From assembly GCA_003290165.1 (NCBI GenBank), contig QNQO01005866.1, positions 48,073-112,072 on the forward strand: a stretch of DNA of 64,000 bases, given 5' to 3'. Within the stretch, counting starts at the first letter, position 1. Each line of letters starts with the position of its first letter. Of this stretch, positions 2,229-57,570 are shown piece by piece. A program made the position numbers and the translations under genes. The notes beneath the pieces were generated by a model. That model was not told where the DNA came from and did no database searches. It saw nothing but the letters and a program-made list of their open reading frames with translations. The DNA comes from Berberis thunbergii (lineage: Eukaryota; Streptophyta; Magnoliopsida; Ranunculales; Berberidaceae).

Positions 2229-2906
2229 GTTATATAATTTTCTAACTCTGAAGCCTCCAAATAGCATGGCGAACCTACTAAAGAGCGCACATAAATACAT
2301 CACTATTAAAAAGATGTGGGCTGCTATGAAAAACAACGAGTCCGAGAGGAAATTCTTCTTGTACACGTGGCAGATATCATCCATCACGAGGAATAGACAC
2401 CTCACACTAAATATAGATAACAAGTCTAGTCACTAAAGCTCAAAGATGCATTTAGTCACAAACCTTGACTAAAGTTAAAGGCCCAAATCTAAAGCCCAAT
2501 TGATCTCTTCTCTTCTCTTAGAGAAAAGAGACGTTACGAATGAGACAAGTCATGGCGAAAATTACTCCCCCGAGGATGCATCTCGATGAAGGAGGAGACC
2601 GTTGTGAGAAACATTCCTCTTCATTGCGCCCTGCATGCTTAAGTCATGCACCGAGTTAATTACTCTTATTATAAAAGGTAAAAGAAAGATTCACGAAGGG
2701 GGTATGTAAACACAATACAACTATACTCTGTCCAGGTTCATTCTCTCTTAGAGTTAATTGACTTAAGTATCGGAGTGCCTTCGACCACCGAACAGATGGT
2801 GTCCAACAATCTAACCTTATTTTGCAGGTCAGATCTCGAGGAAAACAAATTTGAATGCATCACTTATAAAACCAAAGCTATGAAGAAGGAATACTTGCTT
2901 GCAGGT
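2229..2906 (+). other. Intergenic, possible LTR 3' part of another Tat-like element
   Basis: No gene is visible. From about 2650 the plus strand has TATTATAAAAG, then TTGACTTAAGTATCGGAGTG and, later, TTTTGCAGGTC. This order is typical of the end of Tat-type LTRs. I found no matching second copy in the window and no clear boundaries, so the LTR reading is tentative. Confidence 0.3.
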
Positions 2907-4132
2907 TGATGCGGATTTAATTAACCTAAATAAATAGGTTATTTCAACCAACTTGTAATAACCGCAAGTGCACGGTGCCTAACTAGTAGACAACGGCAAG
3001 TACGGGTCGATCCCACGAAGAAGGTGGATGCAATTGAATTTTAGAAATTATCTAAACCAATTTAAATGGAAAATGGGGTTACAACATTTTTAAAGCTAAA
3101 CTAAAAATAAATTAAAACTAAGAAAATAAAATAAAAGATAGATGAGATGGGTTTTGTGGGCTTGGACTCACCAATGAGTTAGTAAAATTATTTAAATCTA
3201 AATTACTGAATTTAAAAACGAGAAGCGTTAGGGATGAGAATCCCTTGCTTACACCGAATATGTGATCGTTAAAATCCAATTCAACTTATATCATGTTTCT
3301 ATCAAACATTAACAAATTATTTCAAGCAAATACGCTCTTACCAAGTATTAAGTGTCTTTTTATGGCACACTTAATCAAAGTTTAAGCAGAACCGGGGGTG
3401 TGAATAGCCAAAAACGGTTTTGACTCATTCTCCCGCCTCTGCTACAGTACCCGCTACAGTGCCGACCTTCTTCTCCAGCGCGACAGCGCCGCTTGCGGTG
3501 CTTTTCTTCGCTCCTCGCGACCGTCCCGTCCTCCAAACGATTCTAAAACCTGAAAAAGATAAAGAAGGTGAGGAAACAATCGAGAGAGAGATGCGAAAAT
3601 AACAGAGAGAAGTCGGGAGAGGACTCCCCTGTTTTCGCTGTCGCGATGGTGGTGCGCCGCGGTGAGGCTATCTGTGGTGGTTGTTCGATGGCGGAGAGAT
3701 GGTAAGGAGGCCTGGACGAAGATAGGACAGAGAGGATAGGAGGACGACCTGCCTGGCTCTGTCGCAAGGCGGAACAAAGTCGCTGTGATGGCGGCTCTGT
3801 TTCGCAGTGGTTGTGGTGCTGGTTCTCGGTCTGTGACGGTGGTCAGTGGTTGTTAGGTGGTGGCGGAAGGACAGATGGTGGATGGAGGATGATGGACAGG
3901 GAGAGGAACAGTGTGGTGATGGTGAAGATTTGACGTGAAATAGTGTTGTCACGCCCCTGTTTCATGGTGGTGGCGGTGGCGGTTGTGTTGTCTTGTGGTT
4001 TAGGTTATGAATTAGGTTTCGGGTTTAGGTTTGTGACTGCTTTATACCATCGTTGAAATCGACTAATTGTCGTTCCTTAACTTATCGCCTTAATATGATT
4101 TCATCGTTTACGCTCAAATTCCTACAAAGACA
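2907..4132 (-). repeat. LTR of a second Ty3/gypsy family (copy 1)
   Basis: It aligns with 14846-16584 over its whole length, starting TGATGCGGATTTAA and ending CTACAAAGACA. On the minus strand it therefore begins TGTCTTTG and ends CGCATCA (TG...CA). It lacks about 295 bases present in copy 2 (around 15328-15610) and another block near 16110-16440. The left flank (CAGGT) and right flank (TGGGG) do not match, so this is not an intact solo LTR. Its right end joins endogenous viral sequence at 4133. The short GC-rich ORFs inside it (3454-3952) are low-complexity and look spurious. Confidence 0.75.
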
Positions 4133-4997
4133 TGGGGGTTTGACTTTAGAAAGACTAATTGTTGAATCAGGGATGGAACAGACATAATCCCAACACATGA
4201 TCCAAGCAAGATTGAAACGGATGAAGAACCAGGTTGAGAGTGACTGTTGGTCAACAGGCTTTGGAGGCTGGTACTTGTCTCTGAAGATATTCCATCCTTC
4301 TCGAACGGGAGAGGGAAGGATCTCAATAACTGGACCAAAGGAGCTCCACCATTGATGTTGGAACCAGAACGGCAGAACTTTGGCATTGAATTTTTGCAGA
4401 AGAGGAAGAACCAAGAATGGCCTGATTGATGAGGACTTATAAGAAATGCTCTAGTCCAAGCATTCTTATAATCATAATAACTGTATATTGGGGAACATAG
4501 CTCTGTGAGAGCCTTTTGTGAAAACGGGGGTGTTGGCCCCATTCAGCTTCTGTCAGGACTTTGAAAATCTGACATTTGGAGAAGGTGATTCGCGTTTTAG
4601 TGTCATCAAAATGATGAGTAACACTAATCGAATCAGAGTCTACCAGAACGAATTCGTAGAATTCTCTGGTTTTGGTTGCATCTGACTCTTCATACTGTTG
4701 TTCTGGAGAGTAAAGGTGTCTTGAAATTGCTTGGGGATCAGAGATTAGAACTCTAAATTGAGGTTCAATCATACATAACAAGTCTAGATTGGTCTTGTTG
4801 ATGTATTGGAGCGGTGCCTGGTTAGGCTTTGGAAGACTTACCAGAGAGGTCAACTCTTCATTTTGAGCAAGAGCTGAATATTTCTGGGTTAATTGGAGGG
4901 CATAAGAAAGAGGGGCTGGCTGCGGAGAAGTAGAAGGCTTCTTCGCATAACTTGCCTTTGATTTGGGTTTGGGAGATGAGTTGGAAGAAGAACTCAT
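4133..4997 (-). pseudogene. Viral ORF2 (copy 1), truncated
   Basis: This protein of unknown function follows the polyprotein. Its ATG (4997-4995) overlaps the TGA of the polyprotein (4996-4994) as ATGA, an arrangement that suggests translation by re-initiation. The N-terminus is rich in Ser, Pro and Lys, and no known domain is recognised. The frame breaks near 4480, where this copy lacks a base present in copy 2. The 3' part is cut off at 4133 by the LTR junction. Copy 2 (12473-13612) shows what follows, an acidic C-terminus. Confidence 0.7.
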
Positions 4998-5551
4998 CTT
5001 TGAAGGAACTCACGGGAGAGGAAGTATGCCAGTGAGTTGTCTTTCCCCTTTATATACTTGATATCAAAATCAAATGCAGAAATCAAACCTTGCCATCTGG
5101 CGAAAATCTGTTTGGAAACCAAATTTAAAACATCTTTAGTTAAAATGTCTTTTGCAGATTGGCAATCAATTTGTAATAAAAAATTTTGATTAATCAAATC
5201 ATCTTGAAATTTCATGATGCACAATACGATCGCTAAAACTTCTTTTTTGACCGTAGAGTAATTCATTTGAGTAGAATTCCAAATACCAGAATGGTATCGG
5301 ACTAATTGAATAGTAGAAGACTCAGGTAGACGCTGTTTGAGGATACCACCATACCCTTGGTTGGACGCATCTGTTTCTACTATTTTGAAGGCATTGGGAT
5401 CTGCAATTCCTAAACAAGGAAGATTTTTTACTTGACTTTTGACTTGACGGACTTTAGAAGTATGGGCTTCAGTCCATGGGCCTGGATTTTTCTTAAGACG
5501 AGAGTATAAGGGCTTAATCAAAACTAAGGCCTTGGTAAAAATCAGCAACAT
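4994..5551 (-). pseudogene. Viral polyprotein: RNase H region
   Basis: This is the C-terminal RNase H part of the polyprotein, which degrades RNA in RNA-DNA hybrids during reverse transcription. The motif VETDASNQGYGGILKQ holds the first catalytic Asp of retroelement RNase H. The frame differs from that of the reverse transcriptase upstream, so a frameshift lies in the overlap at about 5514-5551. The stop overlaps the ORF2 start. Confidence 0.85.
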
Positions 5552-6383
5552 AGTTTAAAGATCCAAGAAATCGTTGTAATTGGGTTTTATCCCGGATTTC
5601 ATCTGGAAATTTGTCAGCAAATTCAATTGTTCTTGAAATCGGGGTAATCATCCCATTGAAAATCTTGTGACCTAAAAATCTAACATTTGTTTGAAACAAA
5701 TTGATTTTGGTTGGAGATAAAACCAATCCATTCTTTTTAATACAATTTTCGAATTGATATAAATGTTTCCAGTAGGCTGGAACTGAATCAGAGAACACCA
5801 GTATATCATCGATATACACAATGGTGAATTGAGATAATTGGGATAGAATATCATTCATGATATTCAGGAACTCGCTAGGAGCATTTTTGAGGCCGAATGG
5901 CATTACGTTCCATTTGTAATGACCAAAAGGGACATTGAAGGCGGTTTTATACCGATCCTTGGGGTGAATCTGGATTTGACAAAATCCAGATTTAAGATCA
6001 AACTTAGAAAAGACACAGGCATTGTGTAATCTTTTAAGCAGATCTCTTTGAGAGGGAATTGGATATCGAATCCATTGAAGAACCTGATTTAAAGGTTTAT
6101 AATTGATGACTAAATGAGGACTTCCTCGTTCGAGTTCTGCATTTTTATTTACATAGAAAGCAGCACAACTCCATGGAGATTTGGAATCTCTAATGAGTCT
6201 TTTTTGCTTTAATTGATGAATTTCTTGTTTGCAAAATTCCATAAGTTCGCTATTCATTTGAATAGGACGAGCCTTAGTGGGAATTTTTCTTTCATCAAAC
6301 CCTGGTTCATAAGGAAGACAAACCACATGTTGAGATCTATACCAAAATGCATTAGGCAAATTAGAACAGAGTTCATCTTGCAA
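5514..6383 (-). pseudogene. Viral polyprotein: reverse transcriptase region
   Basis: This is the polymerase core of a caulimovirid polyprotein. The catalytic YIDD is encoded at 5816-5805, and the upstream FDLKSGF and MPFGLKNAP blocks are visible in one open frame of 289 codons. This is the best-preserved part of the virus. The joins to protease upstream (near 6380) and RNase H downstream (near 5520-5550) are out of frame. Confidence 0.92.
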
Positions 6384-6969
6384 ATGTTTTGGTATTGGAT
6401 TATTTGAGATTGAAGTTTAGGTTCACTGATTTGATCAGCTACCCTTTTATATTCAATTTCTTGTTTCAGAAAGTTTAACTGCTGTTGTTTGCAGATTAAA
6501 CGATTCAAAAACTTTTGTTTAGAAACTTGATTAAGTTCATAAACTTCTGATTTAAACAAGAATGGAAATTCAACCTTAGTACCAAGCATGGTAGTTGAAA
6601 TCCCTTGTTTAGAAACAGAAAAAGGAGAAATTGCATTAATAAAGGGCGTACCTAAAATCATTTTTGTTCCATATTTTTAACAAGAAGAAAATGTTGTTTA
6701 ATGCAAATCTTATTCTTGCAAATATGAGCATTTGTTAATTTGAAAGCAATTTGAAGTTTTGAGTTATCTGTAGTATACAGACTTTGAGTTGTTTGTTTAA
6801 AGTATTGTACAGATACAATACCTTCTTGGATACAATTCATATCAGCCCCTGAATCTATCAAGGCAATTACTGATATGCTTGTTTCATTATAAATATTTAA
6901 AGTTATGGCTACATACCATTTTTGGATGGTAACAATATGGGGATTAACTTGTTTTTGTTTAAATTGCAA
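6254..6969 (-). pseudogene. Viral polyprotein: aspartic protease region
   Basis: This region corresponds to the retropepsin-type protease that processes the polyprotein. The active-site motif DSGAD is encoded at about 6855-6841, and the downstream ILGTPF block, equivalent to the conserved hydrophobic-Gly motif, is in another frame. The frame changes at about 6658-6665. The region is therefore broken, but recognisable from its place between coat protein and reverse transcriptase. Confidence 0.8.
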
Positions 6970-9337
6970 AGGAAATCTGCTTGTTTCTGCTTTGAAGAAG
7001 AAAGTTGTTGAGAAGAAATAACAGGAGTTATATCTTCGTCTTCTTTTTCAGAAATAGCGGGAAACTGATTTTCTTGCAACATTTGAATTTGAAGGTCAGT
7101 TAAATTTTGATGTTGTTTTAACTGATTAACCTCTTTTTTAAGATTGTTTACTTCATGTTGTAAGTCTGCAAGACTAACAGGAGAAGCACTTGCTTTTGTT
7201 TGATTAAACCTTCTAATGATTTCTCTGTGATCATAAAAAGAACTGATCACATCAGGAGGAGATTTCGTTTGGGAGAGAGAGTTCTTGATGTGTTGAAGAT
7301 ATTCAGTCTTCATTTGAGGATCATCAATTTTATCTACAAAATCAAGCAATATTTGTGATTGCTTATTTTGTGATAGCATATTGATTTGGGTTTAGCTGAA
7401 AGGTGGCATAAGCATGCACCAGGAGCACAATCACATGATTGTTCAGAAGAATCAGAAGAATAATTGAAGTTATTCATCTGTAGTTCTGGTTCAGAAGAAT
7501 CGGAGTCTGAATCTATCAGACAATTTAAAAACATATGTTTCATATGTTTGGGTATATCCAGGGCTTGGATCTTTTGGGTCGTTCTACATTGTTTTGCATA
7601 ATGGCCAGGTTGACCACACTTAAAGCAAACAGGCTTTGAAGTGGAGCCTTTCTTAAAGGGTTTGGACTTACGAGTCCCATGTTTTTTGGGCTTGCTATAG
7701 TACTGTTCAAGTGGCTTAGCAGGCTTTGGGCCATAAGGCTTTTTTCTGTTTAAATTGTCGGGCCGGGTTGGACCGATACTTTTGTTTGGATGTCAAATGG
7801 TGTTTAGTGATCAAACACCGGCTTGCCTTTCAAAAAAAAAAAAAATTAATTAATTTTAGCCTTTCAAAAAAAAAATTGGTGTTTAGTGTTCAAATGGGCC
7901 GGATAATGGAATTCATCAAACCCATATTGTTGACAAAAGTCACCTAATTCTCTAGGTCCATAAATATGCTGTTTTTTTAATTGTTTTTTAATTTTAAATC
8001 ATTGCAAATTTGAAGGGCGCATTTATTGATAAACGCAATTAAATCACCAAATGTTAAGAGCTCGTACTGTATATCACCTCCATGCTGTTCCTGGAGTTTA
8101 GTACGAACAGTTTCAGCAAAGATTTCAGGAAGACCTGAAATAAACTTACGTTTCCAGAATGGATTTGCTGCATCAGTCTGAAGCATCACCCGTTTCATAA
8201 AGATATCTTTGTAATATCTAAAATGACTCAAGGTAGGACACTTGTGAGACATCAGTAAATCTTTGGCTTTACCTTGGTATTCATTAGGATTTCCTACGAA
8301 ATAGCTAAGAATACTTTGGATTAAGGTAGGCACACTGTCTGGAACGAAAGTTTCTTGACCAAGATTATTTTCAACCTTGATTGGGTTACCATCAGGGCCA
8401 ATTTCTTAGCAAATAAAATTTCTGTTTTTTCAGCAGTAGTGAGATAATTATCCCACCATCCTTTGATCAAGCCGGAAAATCCTTGAATAATGATAGTTGC
8501 AATGGTGTGATCATCTTTGCCTTCTGCTCTATGAGTAGAAGCCATCATCACCATTTCTTGAGTAAGCTCAAGAACTGCATCTTCACTAATGCCATCAATA
8601 TTCCAGATATACAATTCTTTTGGGGAAAAAGAACCAAAGGTTTGAAGATTTCTTTCTTCAAACTGCATATCAGGGAATGAAGGTCTAGGATAGAAATTCC
8701 TAGATGTTGGCATGGGATTTTTCCATTTTGGAGTTTTTGATGCTGTCTTAGCATGTCTAATAGGATTTGCCTGATATGGAATGTAATTTAAACGATCCAA
8801 TTCAGACATAGGGTCAAAATCAACACTTATGTCTGATTCACAGTCAGTCATGGCTGGATGAGACAAAGTATTGATTCGTAATCTTGAATCCATTTTTAGA
8901 GCATCTAATTTGGCATCAATTTCTTTTAATAAATTTGTTTTAGAAGAAAATGTATTTGGCGCCAAAGGATCAGGAATTTGAAAATAAACATTTTGTCTCT
9001 TTATTTCTTGTTCCTTGCTTACCTTTTCTTCTAATTGTTTTTTTCTCAGTTCGTTGGTTACGAGTTGGTCTTGAACTAATTTTTCACCGAGTTCAGACAG
9101 AAGAAGGTTAGTATAATTATTCTGATGAATAAGAATACTAACATAATCTTCAGTTTGGTGAGAAAACGGAGAAGCAATATAATTTTGATTTGAAACTTTA
9201 AACTGGAGGTCTACCATAGGAGGTAAAACAGCTCTAACAGTTTTCTTGTCTGTAGAAGTCCAGACTTTAGGTGTTACATTTAAGACATGAATTTGAGGGA
9301 TGTGAACGTTGAAATACCAATCTAAAAAGGGTAGATT
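6909..9337 (-). pseudogene. Viral polyprotein: coat protein region with CCHC zinc knuckle
   Basis: This is the nucleocapsid part of the polyprotein. A Cys-x2-Cys-x4-His-x4-Cys knuckle is encoded at 7627-7586, followed by an acidic Ser/Asp/Glu stretch near 7500, typical of plant pararetrovirus coat proteins. A predicted coiled coil (QHEVNNLKKEVNQLKQ-type heptads) lies near 7100-7180. Breaks: a single in-frame TAA at 9340-9338 separating it from the movement-protein part, a frameshift near 8405, an A-rich insertion at about 7805-7870, and further frame changes near 7380 and 6960. Confidence 0.8.
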
Positions 9338-10074
9338 TTATTTCAATTCTTCACAACATTCATAGAAAGATTTGCTAAGTTCTTTGCGTTCTGACTCAGT
9401 TGTCTGAGCAATGAACTTTTCTCTTCTTTCATCATTGTCTGTAGACAAGAAGTCTCTTTTAATTTTTTCTTTATCAAGTTTAAAATTTGTTGTTAAACAT
9501 TGAACCCTGGGAATCTGGAATTCCATTTCAGATTGTGTGGGTGATTGATTTGCTTCTGAAGTTTCAGGAACTTCATTTTGATTATAAATGGGTTGAGGAA
9601 TCTGGGGATAATTAGGATTTGTCCTAATATTTCTTAATTGAAGATGAGGAATGACTTCAGGGGTTGGTGTCCTCGAAGGGAGTCTGGTTGGAGCAGTTCT
9701 GAATGAAGATTCAGATCTTCGTCCAGATTCAAACTTAGAAGGATCAAGAGTAGTAACTCTTGCATCATTGAATCTCAGTTCAACAGATCCATCAGGGAAT
9801 GATAAGATTTTGTCGATCTGACTTGGAGGAAGTTTCTTTGGGTTAGAAACTCCTTCAATGATCCATGATTCAGGAAGAGTGACCTGATCCCATTGAATCG
9901 TTCTGGGTACGATTACATTGGTCTTTTGGTCATTTACCTCAAAGAGGATTGTTTGTCCTCTGTCATCTGTCTGCAAGGCACGAGGCCTCAATTGAGTTTT
10001 CATTGCTCTATAAGTGGTCTTATAGATTAGAGCAAAGGGTTCAGAACCTTCAGCCATGTCAAAGCTAGAGGTCT
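9338..10074 (-). pseudogene. Viral polyprotein: C-terminal part of movement-protein region
   Basis: The minus-strand frame from 10057 to 9338 is open for 239 codons and lies directly upstream of the coat region in the same frame, separated only by one stop. By position and length it is the end of the movement-protein region and the linker after it. No catalytic motif is expected here. Its 5' side is replaced at 10075 by satellite DNA, so the conserved core of the movement domain is missing. Confidence 0.65.
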
Positions 10075-11023
10075 GTTAAGCGCAACCAAACTAGTTTGTT
10101 GAGTCAAAAATGTTCCATTTGTCATTATTAACGTCCACGCGAGGTTAGAAGTCAAACGGAGTCCATTTGGTCACTCAAATCCTTGTATTCTCGGATTGCA
10201 CCCAAATTGGTCTCCAATGGAGCCTACAACGTACAAACGAGTTTTATTTCTTCGTTAAGCGCAACCAAACTTGTTTGTTGAGTCAAACATGTTCCATTTG
10301 TCATTATTAACGTCCACGCGAGGTTAGAAGTCAAACGGAGTCCATTTGGTCACTCAAATCCTTGTATTCTCGGATTGCACCCAAATTGGCCTCCAATTGA
10401 ACCTACACGTACAAACGAGTTTTCCTTCTTCGTTAAACTTAACCAAACTTGTTTGTTGATTCAAACATGTTCCATTTGTCATTATTAACGTCCACGCGAG
10501 GTCAGAAGTCAAACGGAGTCCATTTGGTCACTCAAATACTTGTATTCTCGGATTGCACCCAAATTGGCCTCCAATTGAGCCAAAACGTACAAACGAGTTT
10601 TCTTTCTCCGTTAAACTTAACTAAACTAGTTTGTTGAGTCAAAAATGTTCCATTTGTCATTATTAACGTCCACGCGAGGTTAGAAGTCAAACGGAGTCCA
10701 TTTGGTCACTCAAATCCTTGTATTCTCGGATTGCACCCAAATTGGCCTCCAATTGAGCCAAAACGTACAAACAAGTTTTCCTTCTCCATTAAACTTAACC
10801 AAACTAGTTTGTTGAGTCAAACATGTTCCATTTGTCATTATTAACGTCCACGCGAAGTTAGAAGTCAAACGGAGTCCATTTGGTCACTCAAATCCTTGTA
10901 TTCTCGGATTGCACCCAAATTGGTCTCCAATGGAGCCTACAACGTATAAACGAGTTTTATTTCTTCGTTAAGCGCAACCAAACTTGTTTGTTGAGTCAAA
11001 CATGTTCCATTTGTCATTATTAA
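10075..11023. repeat. 178-base satellite array (about 5.3 units)
   Basis: Units start at about 10075, 10254, 10432, 10610, 10788 and 10967, with spacings of 179, 178, 178, 178 and 179 bases. Each begins near GTTAAGCGCAACCAAACT (or AAACTTAACC variants) and contains the fixed block CATTATTAACGTCCACGCG. Units differ at a few positions only, so the array is young or homogenised. It starts next to the movement-protein remnant and breaks off at 11023 inside a unit, directly against viral sequence. No ORF is conserved between units. The length is typical of nucleosome-sized plant satellites. Confidence 0.95.
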
Positions 11024-12472: not shown

Positions 12473-13612
12473 CAAGGATCGATGACTCCATAACAGTCAT
12501 CTTCATTGAGATCCACTGTTGGATCGTCTTCTTCATTTTCATCAGCTTCATCAGAACATATCTGGGACAGAGTTTCGATGAGCTGAGCTCTAGTTGGCTT
12601 GGTCATGATCTTCTATAGAATCTGCTGCTTCAACTGTTTAACGTTGGAGGATGATTCTGAAGGGAGACCAATTGGAACTATTGGTGGTGTAGACAACACC
12701 TCTTTTTTGGAGAAGAAGGCTGTTACACCTTCTTTTGTGACCTTCGAGTGGTCAAATCTTTGCCACCACTTAACCTTGAAGCGTCGGCATAACCATGGGG
12801 GTTTGACTTTAGAAAGACTAATTGCTGAATCAGGGATGGAGCAGACATATTCCCAACACATGATCCAAGCAAGATTGAAACGGATGAAGAACCAGGTTGA
12901 GAGTGACTGTTGGTCAACAGGCTCTGGAGGCTGGTACTTGTCTCTGAAGATATTTCATCCTTCTCGAACGGGAGAGGGAATGATCTCAATAACTGGACCA
13001 AAGGAGCTCCACCATTGATGTTGGAACCAGAACGGCAGAACTTTGGCATTGAATTTTTTGCAGAAGAGGAAGAACCAAGAATGGCCTGATTGATGAGGAC
13101 TTATAAGAAATGCTCTAGTCCAAGCATTCTTATAATCATAATAACTGTATGTTTGGGGAACATAGCTCTGTGAGAGCCTTTTGTGAAAACGGGGGTGTTG
13201 GCCCCATTCAGCTTCTGTTAGGACTTTGAAAATCTGACATTTGGAGAAGGTGATTCGCGTTTTAGTGTCATCAAAATGATGAGTAACACTAATCGAATCA
13301 GAGTCTACCAGAACAAATTCGTAGAATTCTCTGGTTTTGGTTGCATCTGACTCTTCATACTGTTGTTCTAGAGAGTAAAGGTGTCTTGAAATTGCTTGGG
13401 GATCAGAGATTAGAACTCTGAATTGAGGTTCAATCATACATAACAAGTCTAGATTGGTCTTGTTGATGTATTGGAGCGGTGCCTAGTTAAGCTTTGGAAG
13501 ACTTACCAGAGAGGTCAACTCTTCATTTTGAGCAAGAGCTGAATATTTCTGGGTTAATTAGAGAGCATAAGAAAGAGGGGTTGGCTGCGGAGAAGCAGAA
13601 GGCTTCTTCGCA
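12473..13612 (-). pseudogene. Viral ORF2 (copy 2), 5' end missing
   Basis: It is nearly identical to copy 1 from about 13610 down to 12797, and continues beyond the point where copy 1 is cut. The C-terminus, ending with TGA near 12473, is strongly acidic (runs of Asp and Glu between about 12570 and 12480). The start codon is lost at the junction at 13612. An extra base near 13057 and other small changes break the frame. The function is unknown. Confidence 0.7.
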
Positions 13613-22496: not shown

Positions 22497-22499
22497 TTA

Positions 22500-22965
22500 C
22501 ACTACTACAAATATAGGCTTGCATAGCGCTTAAAAATAGGCTTAGATAGCGCTATGCAAGGCGCGTACTTGAATAGCGTTTCGTATTAAGCGCTATCTAA
22601 GCGTTGATTTTTTTTAATTAACTTCAATAGTGCCTTAGAAAGCGCTAATTTTTTTTTTTTTAAATTAGCTTGAATAGCACTTTGATGAGCGCTATTTAAT
22701 TTTGTTGATTTCTTTTAATTAGCTTCAATAGCGCTTTAGAATTTCGGTGAATTTTTTTTATTAACTACCATAGCGCTTAAAAGCGCTATTTAATTTAAAT
22801 GAATTTTTTAAATTAGATTTGTTTATCTGCTAAGATAGCGCGTAAATAAGTGCTATGGAAGTAATTAGATTGTTCTTAGATAGCGCTAAAAGAAGCGCTA
22901 TTGTAGTATATATGTTAAACTTAGATAACGCTTATTTGAGCGCTATCTAAGTTATTTGATTTGTT
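22500..22965. repeat. CACTA subterminal repeats, left end
   Basis: At least a dozen copies, in both orientations, of the palindrome-centred motif 'tagcgct' or 'agcgctatctaag' lie within ~450 bases of the left terminus. In CACTA elements such subterminal motifs bind the transposase. The matching cluster is at 27230-27510. Confidence 0.85.
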
Positions 22966-23186
22966 TTTTCTATTTTTCCGATACCGATTTTCTGGGCTAA
23001 ATATAATATTTAATATAATAATGACAACGTTCAATCAATCAATAAAGACACAACATGATAACTAACTGTTTCTCATTCATTCAAAATATAATTTAAGCAT
23101 TCATACAAAGTGCAGCAGGTAACGGGACCCCTAGCTGTTTCTCAAATTCCCATCTACCAGTCAATATATAACACGATCGTACACAC

Positions 23187-23660
23187 CTAAATGATCAACT
23201 GCACATCATTGATGTCCAAACCCCTAGCTGCCACATTTGTGGCCACCAATGTCATGAACTTTCCAGACCTAAACCCAGAAAGTGTGACCTAGAAAGAATC
23301 ACCCAATTATTAAGAAGAAAAAGATTGAGTGCTACATGTGTTAAATAAAAATAAGAACACAATCCAAAAGGAGCAAGTAACACCGGCGGCACGCTTGCCT
23401 TTCGAAAAAAAAAAAGTGTAACAAAGAAAGAGAACTTTCTCAGAAATTGGAAGTACATATTTTGAAGATCTTAATCGAAGTGCAAACTTTGCAACCAAAT
23501 TTAAGGAATAACAAAAAGGGCATACTACCATGTAGCTAGTAAACTTACATCACGTGTTGCCTGTTGTATATCTCCATGTAAAGCACGTGCACCAGGCAAT
23601 AGGCCCGAAAGCACAGAAGCAGAATCCTTTGTTTCTGTGAAAATAATTGTTCGCCCACCA
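23187..23660 (-). pseudogene. Captured exons of a DEAD-box RNA helicase (RH7-like)
   Basis: Exon 23660-23549 (112 bases) follows an AG acceptor, encodes GGRTIIFTETKDSA...ALHGDIQQA and ends at a GTAAGT donor (23548). Exon 23288-23187 follows TTTCTAG, encodes [18 protein letters not shown] and ends against GTGTGT. The phases of the two exons fit, so they are consecutive exons of one gene. They span helicase motifs IV-V of the plant nucleolar RH7 type. The last codon is TAG where the family has Gln, a likely C-to-T change directly before the donor. All other helicase motifs are missing. Confidence 0.85.
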
Positions 23661-24472
23661 CTTTATAAAATTAAGACCAGAAATAATACACCATTAGGTC
23701 ACCGAAGATTATACAAATGATGCAAAGGTTATTGTTTATAAACACTGTTACACATATACCAATAGAAAAATAGTGTGCAAAGGCAAACTATGAAGAGCCC
23801 AAAAATATTATTTCAAGCGAGCAAAACAAAAATGCAGCAGAGAATCCCCATATAATTGAGTCAAGGTTCTCATTGTACTCAACCTGTTGCCAAAGTATAA
23901 GTTGGAGACTTGGAGTGCATCGGAGGAAGTGTTAATTAAGGAAAAGATGGAGCTAATTTGGACATGTGTAAAGGTTTTTAATTCTATTATATTAGTAAAT
24001 GGAAAGTGTGGCAAGCATGAAATTAATATTCATAATAAAAAAGAGTACCGTGACTTTCACAGGCATTTCAGAGAATAAGCGCACAAGATTTTTCATGTTG
24101 AAGTCGTGTCATGCAGTGTCGTAGGCATGAGCAATACCTATAACTACATTAATAATCTCTCTTTCTCACTTTCATTCAAAACTCAAGACGGCCAAACTAC
24201 AACTTTGAGACACTTTTGATCAATCAAAAGTCATTACACTGCCCTCAACCCTTACACCCATAATAGAACTAAAGAATGAACATAAATAGCAAGAAAAATT
24301 ACAAAGGAAATGGAGGTTAATAAAAACAGGTAGATCCAAAATGAGTAGTTGACACCTCTCTTTTATCCCTTAACTCCATGTGTAAACTACAAACATTCTT
24401 TATGGATTATCAAATTTTACAAAAATTCATCACACCGTGTGATAAAACAGAAAATTAGTATGAAATACACAC

Positions 24473-25078
24473 CTTCGAATTCTTGCACAAGTTTCTGAAG
24501 CACATGCAATTAAATTCAGCTTCCCACACCAAGAAACAGCACTGAAAATTACACATGTAACCTTTCAGTCACCAACTCACATAACGAAAATAGCCAACAA
24601 TTCCTAAATGGATTTTAGATTGAATAAATAAATAATGAAAAAAATAGTCTGATTAAAGCTTGGGGCATTAGGAGAAAACCCCAACTCTGTCTACAATTCC
24701 AACGGAGCACCAAATTGAGGTCAAAATTCACTCGAACTTCATCGATATCCTTGTAGGTCTTACAATTCAGCCAACTGTAAGACAAACTCTTGTTTTGAAG
24801 CAAACCCATTGCAATGCTTACAAAACTGATCACTTAAGCCAACTGGGAACACCATAATTCAACAAAAACAGACCCAAATTGCTTCACGTTAAACTCCAAA
24901 GACCCCAAAATTAATCAAATTAAACAAAGCAAGAGGAAGGGGTGTGACCTGAAATTTCTACAAAGACCTGGAACGCTCATCTTGTGCTTAAGATTGGAGG
25001 GGGTTGTTTGAGACTGATACGAAACACAGTTGCAGGACCCACTGAGGGCTCCTCCGCCGAATGGGTAGAACAAATGCC
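24473..25078 (-). pseudogene. MED16: Captured N-terminal exons of Mediator subunit MED16 (SFR6)
   Basis: Two minus-strand exons. The first, about 25078-24949, encodes PATVFRISLKQPP and MSVPGLCRNF, with a one-base frame change between these near 25000, and ends at an AG|GT donor (24948). The second, 24541-24473, follows TTTTCAG, encodes CGKLNLIACASETCARI and ends at a GTGTGT donor. Joining phases are compatible (the serine codon is split across the intron). This matches the N-terminal region of plant MED16, a tail-module subunit of Mediator. More than 90 percent of the protein is absent. The exact 5' edge of the first exon is not certain. Confidence 0.85.
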
Positions 25079-25619
25079 AATGTTTTTCCCTATACAAGTT
25101 ATCCCAATCAATAATAAGTTTCCCAATCTAACCCCCATCAAAGCTGAAGATAGGAAACAACCTGAAAGGTGGTAGAACTGTCCAAGCCATTTGATATCTC
25201 ATCCATGAATCTCTTGTTAGGCCAACAATCATCTCCCTTATATGAACCAATTGTGTTATTTAGTGAAACACTAACATATAAACCTTTCTGTAGTGTACTT
25301 TTGCTTCTTCTTTATTTTAATATGAAGGTTCGAGGTCCTCAAAACTCCACTTGCCTATATGACCTGACTGAAGATTGTGTCTAATTAAACATTGCTACTA
25401 AGTAAAGCACACAAAATGGTTTTATACTTAAATAATCTATTACACTTCTCATTTTCTGATTACCAGTACCTGTAGTTAATCTCTTTTTTTGGCCGCCTGA
25501 TAAACCTCATCTCATTGCATCTCCAACCATTGTATCAACACATATATCTAGTCTCAGAATCTGACATGTGATGGCCATCAATTGAAAATTAAAAACAAAA
25601 CCAAGGTGAAAATAAGAAA

Positions 25620-25860
25620 TCTTAGATGAACATCAATTTTCAAAGACTTCCTCGATGGGGATGTTTTCCTGCAAGAATCAACTTCTAATTTTATCACATT
25701 TGAAAATAATTCTTTCTGGCACGACTCCATAAATTGCTTAAACTTCCAAAAAAAATTAGAACAAGTAAAAAAGTTTAAAAGGATCATGGGGTGTTAAAGT
25801 GTATACCAGATCAACAGCTTCCTTGTTAACTGCTTCAAGGGCTATTGATTTGTCATCCAT
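25620..25860 (-). pseudogene. Captured N-terminal exons of a plasma-membrane H+-ATPase
   Basis: From the ATG at 25860-25858 the minus strand encodes MDDKSIALEAVNKEAVDL and reaches a GT donor at 25806. After a 137-base intron ending TTCTTGCAG (25669), the next exon encodes ENIPIEEVFEN and then meets a stop. This is the cytosolic N-terminus of P-type proton pumps (the usual intron lies exactly after the VDL residues). The catalytic DKTGT region and all membrane helices are absent. A one-base loss near 25635 causes the stop. Confidence 0.85.
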
Positions 25861-26355
25861 TTTCACTTCTTTGTCTAAGCCTCAGAAGAGAATCTGCGGT
25901 AATTTCATAAGTAATGCAAGTACAAAATTCAGTTCCAGAGTATCAGTTAAGAGACACTACATTGATTCAAACAGAATTTTCATAATCCGCCTTTTTTAAA
26001 TTGTTAATTTTCAGTGTAATTTCTATTTGATGAAAGAGACCTTCATATTAGAATCTGTGCATTTTGAAATTTCTATAGAACACATGGATGAATATCATCG
26101 GCATAGAAACCCCAAACCCTTGATTTGTTCATTGCTCATTTCAAAGTTCATTATGATTTTCACTTTTTACATTATGCACCCAACAAAATATGTTTAAAAA
26201 GATGACTAAATATTACTACTGAATCAAGTCCAAAACACACCCTATAGATCAAACTATCACTGACATAAAAGTTTCTGCCAATTCAAATACTTAAAAGTTC
26301 CAATTATTATCAAGGCTTAAGAAACAAAGATGAAAATGAGTGAATAAACTCATAC

Positions 26356-26650
26356 CTAGATGATATCAAACAGTCCTCTGCTCCTCAAATCATACTTCAC
26401 TTCATTCCCATTCTCTCCTTCTCCTCTTCCATCCTGCAAACAAATGGTCAAAATCAGAAAAAACCCAAAGGAGAAATGGTAAAATTAAACACAAAAAAAT
26501 GGTTTTTACCTGATGGGCAGAAGATGGCATGCGCTGCAAATATGGAGAACTCAAAACCTAAAAACCCCAAACCCAAAATTTTAGAGATCTTGATTGAGTG
26601 AAGAGCTCGATTGGGGGAAAAGGGAACTCTCTGTTTGTTGTATTTATAGA
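26356..26650 (-). pseudogene. Captured promoter and first two exons of an unidentified gene
   Basis: On the minus strand a TATA box CTATAAATA lies at 26649-26641, then about 110 bases of leader, an ATG at 26530, codons MPSSAHQ, a GT donor (26509), an intron ending TTTGCAG (26434), and a 26-codon exon (26433-26356) encoding DGRGEGENGNEVKYDLRSRG and ending TAG|GTATGAG. The exon phases fit. I do not recognise the gene. It heads the series of captured exons and could supply transcription for all of them. Confidence 0.65.
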
Positions 26651-26859
26651 GAGGAAAAACAAGAGAAAATAGAATTCCCTACCTAACAGTAGCATAAAAA
26701 TCCCTAACTCAAACAAATAATTCTAGCATACTGCATTGTCAACCAATTCAAAACCCAATATGCAATAAACCCTAACAATATCAAAGATATAAACTTTTCA
26801 ACAAATCATCCAAGAAAACAAATGCCTTAAGCTAATCAGACAATCTTGAGAGTGCAAAG

Positions 26860-27240
26860 AGTAATAGTTGACCTAATTCAACTTGGAATCGATTCGTTGT
26901 TGTGAATTATCAATAGAGATAGATGAAATTACTGGACTAAAAAGTTTTTGATCTTGAGAGATGAAAAACTGACGATCAATTGGAGAAAGAAAGAGAGGAG
27001 CACCACAGAAAGACAGCAACAACACTCCGTCGAGAAAGAGCCAAAGCTCGAAAGCGAGAGAGAGTGAGAGCGGTGGAGTGAGGGAGGCAGGGAGAGCAAT
27101 GGAGAGAGTGAGAGCAATGGAGATAGGGAGCAGGGCGAGAGAGAGGGAGGGAGAGCTACGCACAGAGGGGGACGAGAGAGAGAGAAGGAGGCGTTGTTCT
27201 CCCCTTTTAGGTTAGATCGAGCGGGCTTTTAAAAATTTGG
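26860..27240. repeat. GA-rich stretch inside the CACTA element
   Basis: Dense GAGAG and GGAGAGAG runs (about 27050-27190) on the plus strand. They give a serine/leucine-rich minus-strand frame which I regard as spurious. The stretch lies upstream of the captured promoter and may be part of its original 5' region. Confidence 0.5.
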
Positions 27241-27521
27241 GTGAAATAATAAGCGGTTTTATGTATTTGATCTCCCGCTTTTATTCAGAAGCGCTATGGT
27301 AGCTTTGGTAACACTTTTTCTCATAGCGTTTTGTAAAGCGCTATCTAAGACATAACTAAGATAGCGCTTAACTGAAAAAAAAATTAAAAGCGCTATTGTA
27401 GTGTTTTTTTTTTTTGATTTTTTTTTTAAGACAAATAAGCGCTATCCTAGTGCCCACTTGGATAGCTCTTTAAAAAAGCGTTATCTAAGTGGCGTTACCT
27501 AAGCTAATATTTGTAGTAGTG
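27230..27521. repeat. CACTA subterminal repeats, right end
   Basis: Repeats of 'aagcgctat' and 'agcgct' in both orientations, mirroring 22500-22965, up to the terminal ATTTGTAGTAGTG. Confidence 0.85.
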
Positions 27522-27524
27522 TTA

Positions 27525-38784: not shown

Positions 38785-39905
38785 ATAAGATTGTTGGAAT
38801 GTTAGGGGCCTAAATGACCCCTTAAAGTAGAGTGAATTTAGGAAACTTGTACACAAATAGAATGTCAGCATTATAGGTCTGGTTGAGACAAAAGTTAGTA
38901 ATGAAAAAAAGGAGAAAATTCAGAAGGAACTGATACGTGATTGGCTAGCAGTTGATAACAATGACATAGTCCAGGGAGGTAGGATATGGGTCATTTGGGA
39001 TCCTCATGCAATGAACATAAGTGTTGTTTCTAGGTCTGATCAAGCAATCTGCTTGAAATCTACATGGCCTAATGGATACACTTGCAATTTGACATTTGTA
39101 TATGAGAGCAGTTACAACAACATCAGAAAGATATTATGGCTAGAACTTGAAAATTTCTCGAGGAACAACAAACTCCCGTGGTCAGTGCTGGGAGATTTCA
39201 ACTCGATCCTGAATTCCAAGGAAAGAGTTGGTGGGGAGGAGATATCACCATGACAGTTTATAGACTTTACAGAATGCGCAGTGAATGCAGGTTTGTTTGA
39301 TTATAAGTTCAAGGGTTGTTTCTTAACATGGAGTAATAAGCAGAGTAGGGACAATAGAATCATGTGCAAATTAGACAGGGCAATGATAAACCAGGAATGG
39401 CTTCTTGATATGCCTAACTCTGAAGTTGACTTTCTCAACCCAGGAGTGTCAGACCACTCACAAGTCATCTTAGCCATCTATGAACATACAAACCCTGGTC
39501 CTATTCCGTTTAGGTTTTTCAATTTTTGGGTGCATGAGAAGGGCTATATGGAGGTGGTACAAGACACTTGGGCTCAACCAGTGATTGGTAATGCAACTTA
39601 TTGTTTTGTTCAAAAGCTAAAAAGAGTGAAAGCTCAACTGATAGTGTGGAGAAAAAAACAATTTTGTTAATGCTAGTAGTGGAGTAAATACTGCTAAACA
39701 ATTCATGGAGTTCACACAAAGTGCGCTTCAATTGGACCCCCTAAACTCTAGCCTAGCTGAGACAGAAAAAGAAGTAGAAAAGCAATATGCACTAGCAGCC
39801 TGTAAGGCAGAATCAGAGGTAGTGCAAAAAGCAAAAGCAAAACATATGAGGCCAGATGATGAAAATGTCACATATTTTCATCACAACCTACGGGAAAGGT
39901 GATCA
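38785..39905 (+). pseudogene. LINE1 ORF2: endonuclease domain
   Basis: This is the apurinic-type endonuclease that nicks the target DNA. Visible blocks: NVRGLNDP at the start, GLVETKVS, LPWSVLGDFNSILNSKERVG (39175-39235), NRIMCKLDRAMIN and GVSDHSQVIL. The last holds the catalytic SDH. Stops lie between blocks (for example at 39253 and after 39670). No single frame runs through. Confidence 0.82.
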
Positions 39906-39917
39906 AAAAATAAAATC

Positions 39918-41070
39918 TTGTCCATCTATAACTCTCATAATGAGAAACTGGAAGATATGAAGGAGATTGAGAATGAATGCTTCAGGCACTTTGATGATGT
40001 TTATGCTGGTGAACAGGAAGACTATGACATAACTATTATTGACAGTTTGCGAGCAGAAAGAACAATTACTGAGGCTGAGGCCGTGGAGCTGACCCAAGAA
40101 GTGACCAGGAATGAAATAATAGAGGCTCTGTCTTCAATTGGCTCAGACAAGGCACCTGGCCTTAATGGCTTCTCGTCACTATTTTCAAATCAACTTGGAG
40201 GATTATAGGGAATGATTTTACAAAGGCGATCAAGAACTTTTTCAGAAACAAGAAGCTTCTGGGTGAGGTAAATGCAACATATATTACTTTAATTCCAAAG
40301 GTTTCTAATGCATCTTATCTGGGTTATTTCACACCAATTTCTTGTTGCAATGTGCTATACAAATGCATTACTAAGATCTTGACAAATAGAATGAAGAAAG
40401 TAGTTCACAGACTGGTTAGCTTGGATCAGTCAGCATTCATTAGAGGGAGATAAATGCATGACAATGTGATGTTAGCTCATGAATTGGTCAGAAACTATCA
40501 TAGAAACCAGGGAACTCCCAGGCGTGCAGCCAAGATTGATCTTAGAAAGGCATACGATATGGTTAGATGGGAAGCAATAGAGCTTGTCATGAGGAAGATG
40601 CGATTCCCAGAGCAGTACATTGAATGGGTGAAGGCCGACACTACGACCCCTAGGTTCTCCATCTCTATCAATGGTTCTCCTAAAGGTTTTATAAGGGCCA
40701 AAAGAGGAATACGACAAGGGTGTCCAATGTCGCCATATTTATTTGCTCTTGTTATGGAACTATTGCACCTTATATTGAAGAAGAAAGTGGATGAAGGAGA
40801 ATACATTTTGCACCCTAAGTGTAGTAATCCTCTGATCACACATCTATGTTTTGCATGACCTCATTGTTTTTTTTCATGGGAGCATTAAGTCTGCAAAGGC
40901 ACTATCTAGTACTTTGAGCATGTTCAAAGCAAGCACGGGACTAGCTATAAATTGCTCAAAGAGATACTTGTTTGCTGCAGGGGTACCCAATGAGGAACTT
41001 TCTCTGATTACTGGGTGCCTAGAATTTAATGTAGATGTGCTCTCTGTGAAGTACCTGGGATTGCCTTGAT
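39918..41070 (+). pseudogene. LINE1 ORF2: reverse transcriptase domain
   Basis: Blocks in order: SDKAPGLNGFS (about 40145), LIPKVSNASYLGYF, RMKKVVHRLVSLDQSAFIRG, AAKIDLRKAYDMVRWEAIE, GIRQGCPMSPYLFALVMELL (to 40770), and LIVFFHGSIKSAK. The catalytic FADD is damaged: near 40853 the sequence reads TTTGCATGACC, two bases short, which removes one Asp and shifts the frame. Confidence 0.88.
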
Positions 41071-41196
41071 ATCTTCTCCCCTGGCTTATAACCAATGTCT
41101 TCAATTAATTGACAAAATACGCCAAGAATAGGACCCTGACATATGCAGGCATCTGATTAAAGCAGTATTGAATAGCCTGCATGTGTACTGGACCTC

Positions 41197-41418
41197 TTGT
41201 TTTATACTCCTTTCACTGAAAGGATTCCTAGACATAGTTTCATCACTTGGCTTGTTTTGCATAGGTCTCTTAAGACCCAGAATAAGTTGGAAAAATGGAG
41301 AGTCATAACTAGTTCAGTTTGCTCTCTATGTAGTGATGAACCTGAATGTGAAGAGCACCTACTCTTCAAATGTAGGTATTCAAGTTTTGTATGGTCACGT
41401 ATAGGCATCAACCCATGA
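41197..41418 (+). pseudogene. LINE1 ORF2: zf-RVT domain
   Basis: The frame encodes RHSFITWLVLHRSLKTQNKL and CSLCSDEPECEEHLLFKC followed by SSFVWSRIG, the zinc-binding domain after reverse transcriptase. The join to the preceding domain near 41190 is shorter than usual, so a deletion is likely. Confidence 0.85.
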
Positions 41419-41739
41419 ATTTGACAACAGAATGGAAATGGTGTGAGATGAAGTTTGCTGGTAAATAACCAAGCACTATGGTAAAAAAAACTTGCTTTGA
41501 ATGCAACTGTTTACCATTTCTGGACTGAGAGGAATTGTAGAGTATTCCCGTCCAAGTTCAAAGCAGCTGTTGAACTAGTTCTAAAGGTCATTGAAGATGT
41601 CAGACTACGAGCTTCAGTCCTGGATCTTGAAGTAGAAGACAATGCTGACAATAGAGGGCTATTTGACAAATGGATAATTGGAGCTCAGTTTCATATGTGC
41701 ACGAGCACTTGGCATGCTTGGCAGCGGCTTGAACAAGGA

Positions 41740-42211
41740 TGGGTTAAAGTTAATACGGATGGATCTCTAACATGTGCTAGGGGGTTATGGTGCCTTGATC
41801 AGGGACCATGAAGGACTGGTGGTGGCAGCTGCAACAGGGTCCCATAGAGCACAAACAATCATTTTGCACGAGTTACAGGGGATTGAGTTGGGCATCAAGT
41901 TAGCCCGCAAACATGGTTTCCAGATAGTGAAGCTTAGTATGGACTCAAGCAATGTTTTCAAGTACTTTACAACCACTAAAGCTCCTCCATGGGAAGCAAT
42001 TCATACTGCTAGGAGTATCAAGGAGGAAATGAAGAAGTTTGTGGGATGCAGGGTTATGCATGAAGTTAGGGAAACAAACCAGGCAGCAGATAAGCTAGCT
42101 AAGCTTTTACCTAATCTAGAATTTGTGGAGATCATTCCAAGCTCTTTTGTGGAAAACATCAAGAAGATTGTATTTGATGATGCTAGAGGTAAAAAATACC
42201 CTCGAATGTAA
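41740..42211 (+). pseudogene. LINE1 ORF2: RNase H domain
   Basis: All four acidic positions of the RNase H site are visible: VNTDGS, HELQGIELG, LSMDSSN and ETNQAADKLA. A one-base shift near 41775 separates the first motif from the rest. Plant L1 elements with a C-terminal RNase H are known. The domain is otherwise complete (145 codons open to the stop at 42211). Confidence 0.85.
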
Positions 42212-56178: not shown

Positions 56179-57570
56179 AATGATTGACAACATTATGTTT
56201 TGGAACGCTCGTGGAGTAGAGAATAGAGTCACGAGATGTTGATTAAAAAGAATGGTAGCAGAGCATAAGGTCCATATTATTATGTTATCGGAACCAATGA
56301 TAGAGGCAGACATACATTTGGAGATTGGTAATAAAATTAGATTAAAAAGATTGGTAGAAAAGCATAAGGTTCGAATGAAGCGATAGGTGGCAAGATTCGG
56401 GTCTTCCAGGCAGGGATTTGGCGGTTTCAGTGGTAGATATGAAGGATCATGTTTGATTTTTTTTTTTTTTTTGTCGTTCACCCTTTTTTATTTATTTATT
56501 AACCCATGTCTGAAGGCTACATGACTGACTTTATAGTGTTAACCAAACCGGACCCGAAGGCTACAATATTGTTGCTACTTAATATCCTTGTCGCCTCCAT
56601 CTTGCATGGAAACTTCCTTTCGTTCCGATCTATAACATCCACCTTGCATGAAGAATTGCTTTCGTTTTGCTCCAGTCTAGTCTATCTGAAATAGCAGCAT
56701 TCAATATCCGAAGGTTTATCAACAGCAGAACACATCTGTTCCTAATAGTCGGGCGAAAACTCATAAAATCCTAACCAGTGAGTCTCGAACCAGCAACCTC
56801 TCACATCTGCTCCAACTGAGCTGCAATTGGTTGATCAGGTTATTCACTGTAAGGTAATTGACTCTAGTTCTGGTAACTTTATGATTTCCTTTGTTTATGC
56901 TAAGTATTCAGTTGAAGAGAAAGGGAATTATGGGCGAATATGGAAGATTTACTATGCAGTGTGACATCTTTTGGATGATTGACAGGGATTTTCAATACTT
57001 TTGTTAATGAACAAGAAAAATTAAGGGTAATAATCCTTCTATGAGTAACATGACAAAATTTTCAGATTGTATCGAAAATTGTGGATTGTATGACTGTGGG
57101 TTCACTGGCCCAAGATTTACATGGTGTAATAATATGCGCGGAGAGAGCGAATTTGGGCAAGACTGGATAGAGTATTGGTGAACTCAACATGGCTTTCACA
57201 TATGCCTAGCACGAAGGTGGAACATCTACAACGGACTTTTTCAGATCATGCTCCTATTTTGGCTTCAATGCTTATGCAGTCTAGATCAAGTTTTACTCCT
57301 TTCAGGTTTTTAAATATGTGGACTACGCATCCAACATTTGAGGCATTGGTGAACTCGGTGTGGGATGTTGATATGGGTAATATAAGGGCGATGGACGTGG
57401 TTGATGTCAAGTTAAAATTGACGCGTAAAACACTTATTAAGTGGAATAAAGAATTTTTTGGCAATGTCTTTAATAGAATGAGAGCATTGGAAGATGAAAT
57501 GAACCAATGGAAAAAAATTCTACTTTCTGGCTGGGAGGAAAATGGAAGTAATAATTTTAATACGTAGGCA
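56179..57570 (+). pseudogene. LINE2 ORF2: endonuclease and linker
   Basis: It starts MIDNIMFWNARGVENRVT at 56179, then IIMLSEPMIEAD. The SINE interrupts at 56457-56845. Beyond it come ENCGLYDCGFTGPRFTW (~57070-57120) and TFSDHAPILASMLMQS (57237), with the catalytic SDH, and FTPFRFLNMWTTHPTFEALV. The frame 57175-57567 is open for 130 codons. Confidence 0.8.
56457..56845 (-). mobile_element. tRNA-derived SINE
   Basis: On the minus strand the head (56845-56770) has an A-box-like AGCTCAGTTGGAGCAGA and, 19 bases on, a B box GGTTCGAGACTC, the internal RNA polymerase III promoter of tRNA-derived SINEs. The body runs to an A-tail seen as 16 T at 56458-56473 on the plus strand. Flanks GATCATGTT (left) and GATCAGGTT (right) match in 8 of 9 bases, a probable target duplication. 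Confidence 0.75.

Follow-up and report, generated by a model that had tools for sequence, protein, structure and literature searches.

A non-autonomous CACTA transposon carrying pieces of several host genes in Berberis thunbergii

How do exons of several unrelated genes come to lie one after another, all on one strand, between the ends of a single transposon? This question is raised by a stretch of 64,000 nucleotides of Berberis thunbergii (assembly GCA_003290165.1, contig QNQO01005866.1, positions 48,073 to 112,072), here called the window, of which positions 22500 to 27521 were described in an earlier note as a CACTA element holding a series of four host gene fragments. Based on our analysis, this element is very probably a non-autonomous CACTA transposon of the Pack-CACTA kind, which carries gene fragments, would be moved in trans by a CACTA transposase and most likely makes no product useful to the host. 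The pieces that it carries include a fragment of MED16 lying inside a fragment of RH7 (a DEAD-box helicase) and a block of three further genes that is shared with another repeat family.

The exact borders that had been proposed for the element, with its ends and the TTA duplication, were verified:

22500..27521, unstranded: whole non-autonomous CACTA element, 5,022 bp, with CACTACTACAAA...TTTGTAGTAGTG ends and a TTA/TTA duplication
22497..22499, unstranded: left target-site duplication TTA (terminus reading)
27522..27524, unstranded: right target-site duplication TTA (terminus reading)
22500..22529, plus strand: left terminal inverted repeat; the 31-nt arms are 81% complementary and the 30-mer recurs genome-wide
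27492..27521, minus strand: right terminal inverted repeat (inverted-repeat comparison of the arms)
22520..22956, unstranded: left subterminal repeat array of AGCGCTAT and ATAGCGCT units (repeat analysis)
27283..27494, unstranded: right subterminal repeat array (repeat analysis)

The inverted CACTA/CACTG ends, the 3-bp target-site duplication and the arrays of AGCGCTAT-type subterminal repeats near both ends place the element in the CACTA superfamily. Helitrons have neither inverted repeats nor target-site duplications; both are present here, which excludes a Helitron identity. No transposase was found in the element: it has no open reading frame (ORF) longer than 112 amino acids (aa), and the 10 minus-strand and 10 plus-strand pieces that were scanned, out of 119 ORFs listed, gave no transposase match.

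That the element is not a chance arrangement follows from its sister copies, which have their own duplications, and from its terminus. A search with the element ends, as the earlier note had proposed, located the first 30 bases, with at most two mismatches allowed, at 2,240 places of the assembly (2.24 Gb in 11,732 contigs; 1,136 forward and 1,104 reverse, alleles tallied separately) against 0 for the reversed control. When the whole element was used as query and the best 40 of 4,516 first-look candidates were scored, at least 95 matching pieces were obtained, and 20 regions were fetched, which grouped by their flanks into 13 sites with the window included. The copies on contig C95 and in the window represent one insertion (99.8% across the element, with identical 200-bp flanks); the assembly therefore contains both alleles, at least partly, and sites rather than contigs were counted. 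At ten sites both ends were read, and the 3-bp duplications are identical in eight and mismatched by one base in two (L013 and L019/L020).

These sites fall into subfamilies with end regions in common and unlike interiors. Six of the 13 are separate insertions of the 5-kb type (window/L009, L010/L011, L012, L013, L014-L016, L017/L018), that is, the multiple chimeric copies that are looked for in a Pack-CACTA element. Two sites belong to a 6-kb type (L019/L020, L022/L024), three to a longer type (L021 with 7.0 kb, L023 and L025) and two to a further type (L026/L027, L028), the left end of which lies outside the fetched regions. In the longer type, nucleotide-diphospho-sugar transferase exons (PF03407, E = 2e-14 and 2e-7) replace the element middle, and across 25442-27521 the 7-8-kb type cannot be compared, its middle being different DNA. 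In the L026-L028 type the RH7-MED16 junction is kept and an amino-acid transporter exon (PF01490, E = 6e-27) is found further left, on the minus strand.

Which genes, then, does the element of the window carry? Read 5' to 3' on the minus strand, the series runs from the unnamed gene through H+-ATPase, ABCG, the RH7 remnant and MED16 to RH7:

26640..26649, minus strand: TATA-like box CTATAAATAC of a possible promoter; the box is identical in 8 of 8 loci compared, the promoter is predicted
26510..26530, minus strand: unnamed gene, coding part of exon 1 (MPSSAHQ; ORF reading)
26356..26433, minus strand: unnamed gene, exon 2, with a TAG end at the donor site (ORF reading; no Pfam match)
25807..25860, minus strand: H+-ATPase-like exon 1, coding part (MDDKSIALEAVNKEAVDL), with GT donor (putative)
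25622..25668, minus strand: H+-ATPase-like exon 2 (ENIPIEEVFEN, then stop; weak AHA2 match, E = 0.21)
25470..25505, minus strand: ABCG/PDR transporter exon piece (LSGGQKKRLTT), start approximate
25140..25236, minus strand: ABCG/PDR transporter exon piece (FMDEISNGLDSSTTFQ), frameshifted, borders approximate
about 25062..25097, minus strand: RH7 remnant (GKTLAFVLPI exon); the 6-kb sisters hold ~1.3 kb of RH7 here
23840..25062, minus strand: MED16 piece, with part of exon 1 (24949-25061), the intron, exon 2 (24473-24541) and part of intron 2; 98.7% over 1,224 bp to L035
23161..23844, minus strand: RH7 piece with exons 23549-23660 and 23187-23288; GT/AG intron ends are kept, TAG ends the second exon; 96.2% over 687 bp to L037

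Several host genes in a single orientation had been reported before, and the recognised pieces are indeed all on the minus strand. The series of four is correct as far as the named pieces go, but the ABCG/PDR piece had been missed and RH7 is split around MED16. N-terminal exons of MED16 are present as claimed (exons 1 and 2), although the piece begins within exon 1 and has no promoter of its own; the possible promoter belongs to the unnamed gene piece, which extends from the TATA box through exons 1-2 (26649-26356, minus strand).

The pieces differ in how firmly they are identified. Two RH7 exons are matched by Helicase_C with E = 2e-7 (above the cut-off) and 0.013 (below it), the joined RH7 exons of the fuller sister L022 match nucleolar RNA helicase 2 with E = 1e-48, and the TAG at the RH7 exon end is present in 8 of 8 loci. 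The joined ABCG peptide matches PDR proteins at E = 6e-5. MED16 was at first a presumed identity and was afterwards recognised by its locus; a Med16_N family search gave no match, in control genomes likewise, and a PDB search for MED16 gave no useful one. The H+-ATPase is the weakest identification, with E = 0.21 for the joined peptide against AHA2, and otherwise the name given to 25860-25622 is our assumption. Most short exons had no match in Pfam, where only the helicase, Nucleotid_trans and Aa_trans pieces were matched.

The next question regards the genes of origin. A protein search placed MED16 exons on six contigs, of which the C11 locus was covered by the comparison. This locus (L035, C11:1365300-1368300) has an open exon 1 and exon 2, lies on the same strand as the MED16 exons that the protein search placed on C11, ~8 kb upstream of the first of them, and is 98.7% identical to the window piece over 1,224 bp including introns; to the MED16 of the other elements it is 98.0% (L022), 98.6% (L021) and 98.4% (L028). 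For RH7 the closest gene is L037, with 96.2% over 687 bp of exons and introns against the window piece and 93.9% over 1.3 kb against the other RH7 half, which is kept in L022; the other RH7 locus that was read, L036, reaches 78-87% on shorter stretches. Since MED16 and RH7 are at separate loci, a single normal gene is excluded as the source, and the retained introns exclude retro-capture. The claim of capture at the DNA level is thus borne out for these two genes, and neither of the findings that would have spoken against it, the exons standing contiguous in a normal gene or donor genes with matching introns being absent, applies to them. It could not be extended to H+-ATPase, ABCG and the unnamed gene, for which no gene of origin was found with 40 candidates scored per DNA search; the candidates that were read look like repeat copies. 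The H+-ATPase protein search gave at least 174 genome matches. The C-terminal exons of RH7 are also very widespread in this genome, with at least 174 matches when 150 of 868 candidates were scored, and many of these exons have no stop (examples of the places are L036, L037, C5:2502642 and C4799:245215).

Comparison with L037 also indicates how the two pieces were put together. The two halves of RH7 are 528 bp apart in this gene (3204-3733), and at the same place the elements have a 1.29-kb MED16 piece, so that MED16 was acquired within the RH7 piece. Five bp (GAGAA) at the RH7-to-MED16 junction are common to both sources, the opposite MED16 junction in L022 has a short filler, and 4 bp (GAAT) are shared at the MED16-to-RH7 joint of the window copy. 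We infer from these letters that the junctions may have formed through repair with template switching or end joining, with which they fit.

Can the other three genes be regarded as separate captures? Several genes are indeed present, but the ABCG, H+-ATPase and unnamed-gene pieces lie together in a block that also occurs in a second repeat family, here called family B:

25093..26583 (element 2594-4084), minus strand: block common to family B, with ABCG, H+-ATPase and unnamed gene; 97.3% to L046 and 94.2-94.7% to L038, L039, L044 and L045

As the block is common to both families, its three pieces need not be separate captures by the window element. When 25101-25900 was used as query and the best 40 of 262 candidates were scored, 35 of the 40 spanned the whole query at 93-100%; 11 of them are 5-kb-type copies that had been fetched before, and the remaining 24 lie elsewhere, with alleles tallied separately. 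Five of the 24 were read, and these are four sites: C10639/C1641, C351 (L044), C231 (L045) and C859 (L046). C10639 and C1641 (L038, L039) were rejected as two copies; they align over nearly their full length and were treated as alleles. The C10639 stretch, L044 and L046 terminate at TTGTGGTG(T/G)AGTG followed by differing flanks, which is a CACTA-type right end, and L045 stops before the right end; a left end of family B was not found at the four sites read. Since the block is also found in repeats whose CACTA-type right end is unlike that of the window element, the window family probably acquired it already assembled. Within the block the six copies of the window family are 1.1-1.8% apart and L046 differs from them by 1.7-2.3%; the three other B copies differ by 4.3-5.4% from the window family, 3.0-3.7% among themselves and 3.9-4.2% from L046. 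These values point to a B element like L046 as the probable source of the cassette, on a tree that is unrooted.

Another option is that the window element captured the genes one by one and that family B later took the block from it. The block would then be in both families just as it is, and the unrooted tree gives no direction; yet L046, in a B context, is close to the window family, and the remaining B copies have diverged further from each other and from L046 than the window family has within itself. We consider this order of events unlikely. Two observations were made at the C10639 site of family B. On the minus strand of L038 (C10639:88500-98400), ORFs were seen by eye that resemble a Raf-like kinase, a PAS domain, PsbS, further ABCG exons and a mitochondrial presequence; a Pfam scan of six L038 pieces, with the PsbS piece outside the scan, supported none of these likenesses. 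L038 with L042 (C10639) also contains two 537-bp direct repeats, 93% alike and ~1.1 kb apart, which are probably the long terminal repeats of a retroelement near the B block.

Based on these comparisons, the assembly of the non-autonomous element may have proceeded as follows. A CACTA element with these ends would have acquired an RH7 fragment, and ~530 bp within it would then have been exchanged for 1.29 kb of MED16, with junctions formed through template switching or end joining as the shared 5 and 4 bp and the filler suggest. The assembled block of ABCG, H+-ATPase and unnamed gene would have been obtained from, or shared with, the CACTA-type family B. Recent multiplication would have followed, in which copies diverged through internal deletion and module replacement, such as that by the nucleotide-sugar transferase piece in one subfamily and by the amino-acid permease piece in another. 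Another possible route would be the published model for Pack-CACTA elements, in which DNA is captured when neighbouring elements are excised jointly (PMC13317346; PMC8903248).

The multiplication is indeed young. For the 23 site pairs listed out of 55, K80 of the left halves ranges from 0.0118 to 0.0206, which at a rate of 7e-9 implies an age of about one million years.

Does the element make a product? A predicted promoter ahead of spliceable exons raises the possibility of a young chimeric gene, in which the promoter in the right part drives the captured exons and a product, for example a MED16-RH7 fusion, is functional. A spliced model comprises ten exons with 882 bases, where the borders of ABCG and of H+-ATPase exon 2 are partly guessed, and exon 2 of the unnamed gene, exon 2 of the H+-ATPase and RH7 exon b each end in a stop. 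One ORF stands out:

23187..24980, minus strand: possible spliced ORF of 104 aa (predicted), with MED16 exon 1 from an internal Met (24980-24949), exon 2 (24541-24473) and the RH7 exons (23660-23549, 23288-23187)

It closes at the TAG of the RH7 exon end and is the longest ORF of the model, also when exons are skipped and their order is kept. Canonical, in-phase splice sites would join MED16 and RH7 in it; both genes are read in their parental frames, and phase was required at the fusion joint alone, with a chance of one in three. At 10 of 11 sites the ORF is open and none of the 11 has a frameshift, the TATA box is invariant in the eight loci, the pieces share one orientation, and H+-ATPase exon 2 (49 bp) has 0 differences in 735 comparisons. 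In soybean, the exons of Tgm-Express1 are reported to be spliced into chimeric mRNAs (PMC1947982). Against such a gene, translation of the 104 aa would have to begin at a Met within MED16, a long way after the first ATG in the model; L013 carries a stop, and in L010 the MED16 exon 1 donor is lost, with GC instead of GT. Moreover, the changes from the majority sequence are 28 nonsynonymous and 5 synonymous, where 75% nonsynonymous is expected at random. Among the six 5-kb-type sites, exons differ in 233 of 13,205 comparisons (1.76%) and the other internal DNA in 491 of 38,657 (1.27%), so the exons are not more conserved than the remaining internal DNA; shifted exon sets have a mean of 1.40% (sd 0.23), and 280 of 300 do not exceed the observed value. 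The 104-aa ORF may therefore be regarded as a possible product with no sign of purifying selection, by a test that is weak in copies this young, and a functional chimeric gene is very improbable.

A different role would be through small RNAs, with siRNAs that match MED16, RH7 or H+-ATPase and alter silencing, or with gene pieces that shield the element. The 98.7% match to the MED16 locus and the many copies make cross-matching possible, and shielding from silencing has been discussed for CACTA elements (PMC8978399), but the pieces are sense, not antisense, to the putative promoter. We find such a role improbable.

Returning to the Pack-CACTA interpretation, its expectation of host DNA with a genomic locus is borne out by MED16 and by RH7, the latter perhaps through a paralogue. 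Several points weigh against the interpretation. No transposase-bearing element with these ends was identified, with no dedicated PF02992 search behind that result. For the three genes of the block no gene of origin was found, C11 was the one MED16 locus compared, and the true RH7 donor may be a paralogue of L037, RH7 exons being very numerous and two loci having been read. Family B was called CACTA from the right end alone, at three of four sites. Finally, the ORF open at nearly all sites is what a coding role predicts, and a recent origin explains it equally.

Another question regards the orientation of the pieces. Every recognised captured piece is on the minus strand, including the sugar transferase and amino-acid permease pieces of the sister subfamilies. 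For seven donors the chance of one orientation is 1 in 64 given independent captures, an independence that the shared block makes doubtful. As the minus-strand ORFs had been picked by eye, a plus-strand control was made with 10 ORFs of the window element and 10 of L021/L028, and none reached a family cut-off (best E = 0.013); it is a weak control, since the MED16, H+-ATPase and ABCG exons themselves have no Pfam match. H+-ATPase exons were also seen ~0.3-1.4 kb from 4 of 100 listed termini (C4, C20, C41 and C44; e.g., C20:481664-483080), on the strand opposite the terminus, in a comparison by hand of two partial lists with a distance limit of 1.5 kb, where the right ends of the four places lay outside the reading; these are perhaps further gene-carrying subfamilies. 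One could speculate that CACTA elements here take up genes one way, sense to the right-end promoter, and trade ready-made multi-gene cassettes between families, a generalisation that we think unlikely to hold. If true, such a rule could stem from selection against elements whose RNA is antisense to genes that the host needs, or from a capture mechanism with a fixed direction; fusions in frame, like that of MED16 and RH7, would then be its by-product. A literature search for Pack-CACTA elements with an orientation bias found no paper among those searched, which does not prove that none exists.

The window also contains remains of other elements. At 4082-10075, on the minus strand, a run of ORFs includes one reverse transcriptase and one CCHC zinc knuckle by Pfam, with similar ORFs near 12723-13482; we take this run to resemble an endogenous pararetrovirus. 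LINE-type remnants lie at 38861-42208 on the plus strand, with a reverse transcriptase (PF00078) at 40454-40855 and RVT_3 at 41771-42208 by Pfam, and another, seen by eye only, at 57133-57567.

Gene-carrying CACTA transposons are already known and the window element is a further case. The nearest is Tgm-Express1 of soybean, a 5.7-kb CACTA element in which exon and intron DNA from five unrelated host genes is present (PMC1947982). It lies inside the F3H gene and its exons were shown in spliced transcripts, whereas the window element has many copies and swapped modules and is known from DNA alone. The maize Pack-CACTA elements with DNA from several loci (PMC8903248) are likewise non-autonomous, with CACTA ends and captured coding DNA; the order of MED16 inside RH7 and the block shared between families are details absent from the Pack-CACTA descriptions that were compared. 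Maize Helitrons are described as carrying several gene fragments per element by stepwise capture (PMC3288121); from these the window element differs by its inverted repeats and target-site duplications. In grapevine, Cactavine-5 is described as a CACTA element with a captured PPR piece opposite to its transposase gene (PMC2528002); in the window element the recognised pieces all run one way, and no transposase was recognised among the scanned pieces for a comparison.

What appears notable, judging from the sequences compared, is that modules seem to move between CACTA-type families and that the captured pieces seen share an orientation. The element provides a worked case of assembly, with a likely MED16 origin locus, a close RH7 gene, a capture within an earlier capture, a shared cassette and a recent spread. 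It is also a warning for annotation, as transposon copies contain MED16, RH7 and H+-ATPase exons that look intact. Copies of different stages coexist in one genome, and this makes the rules of order and orientation in CACTA capture measurable.

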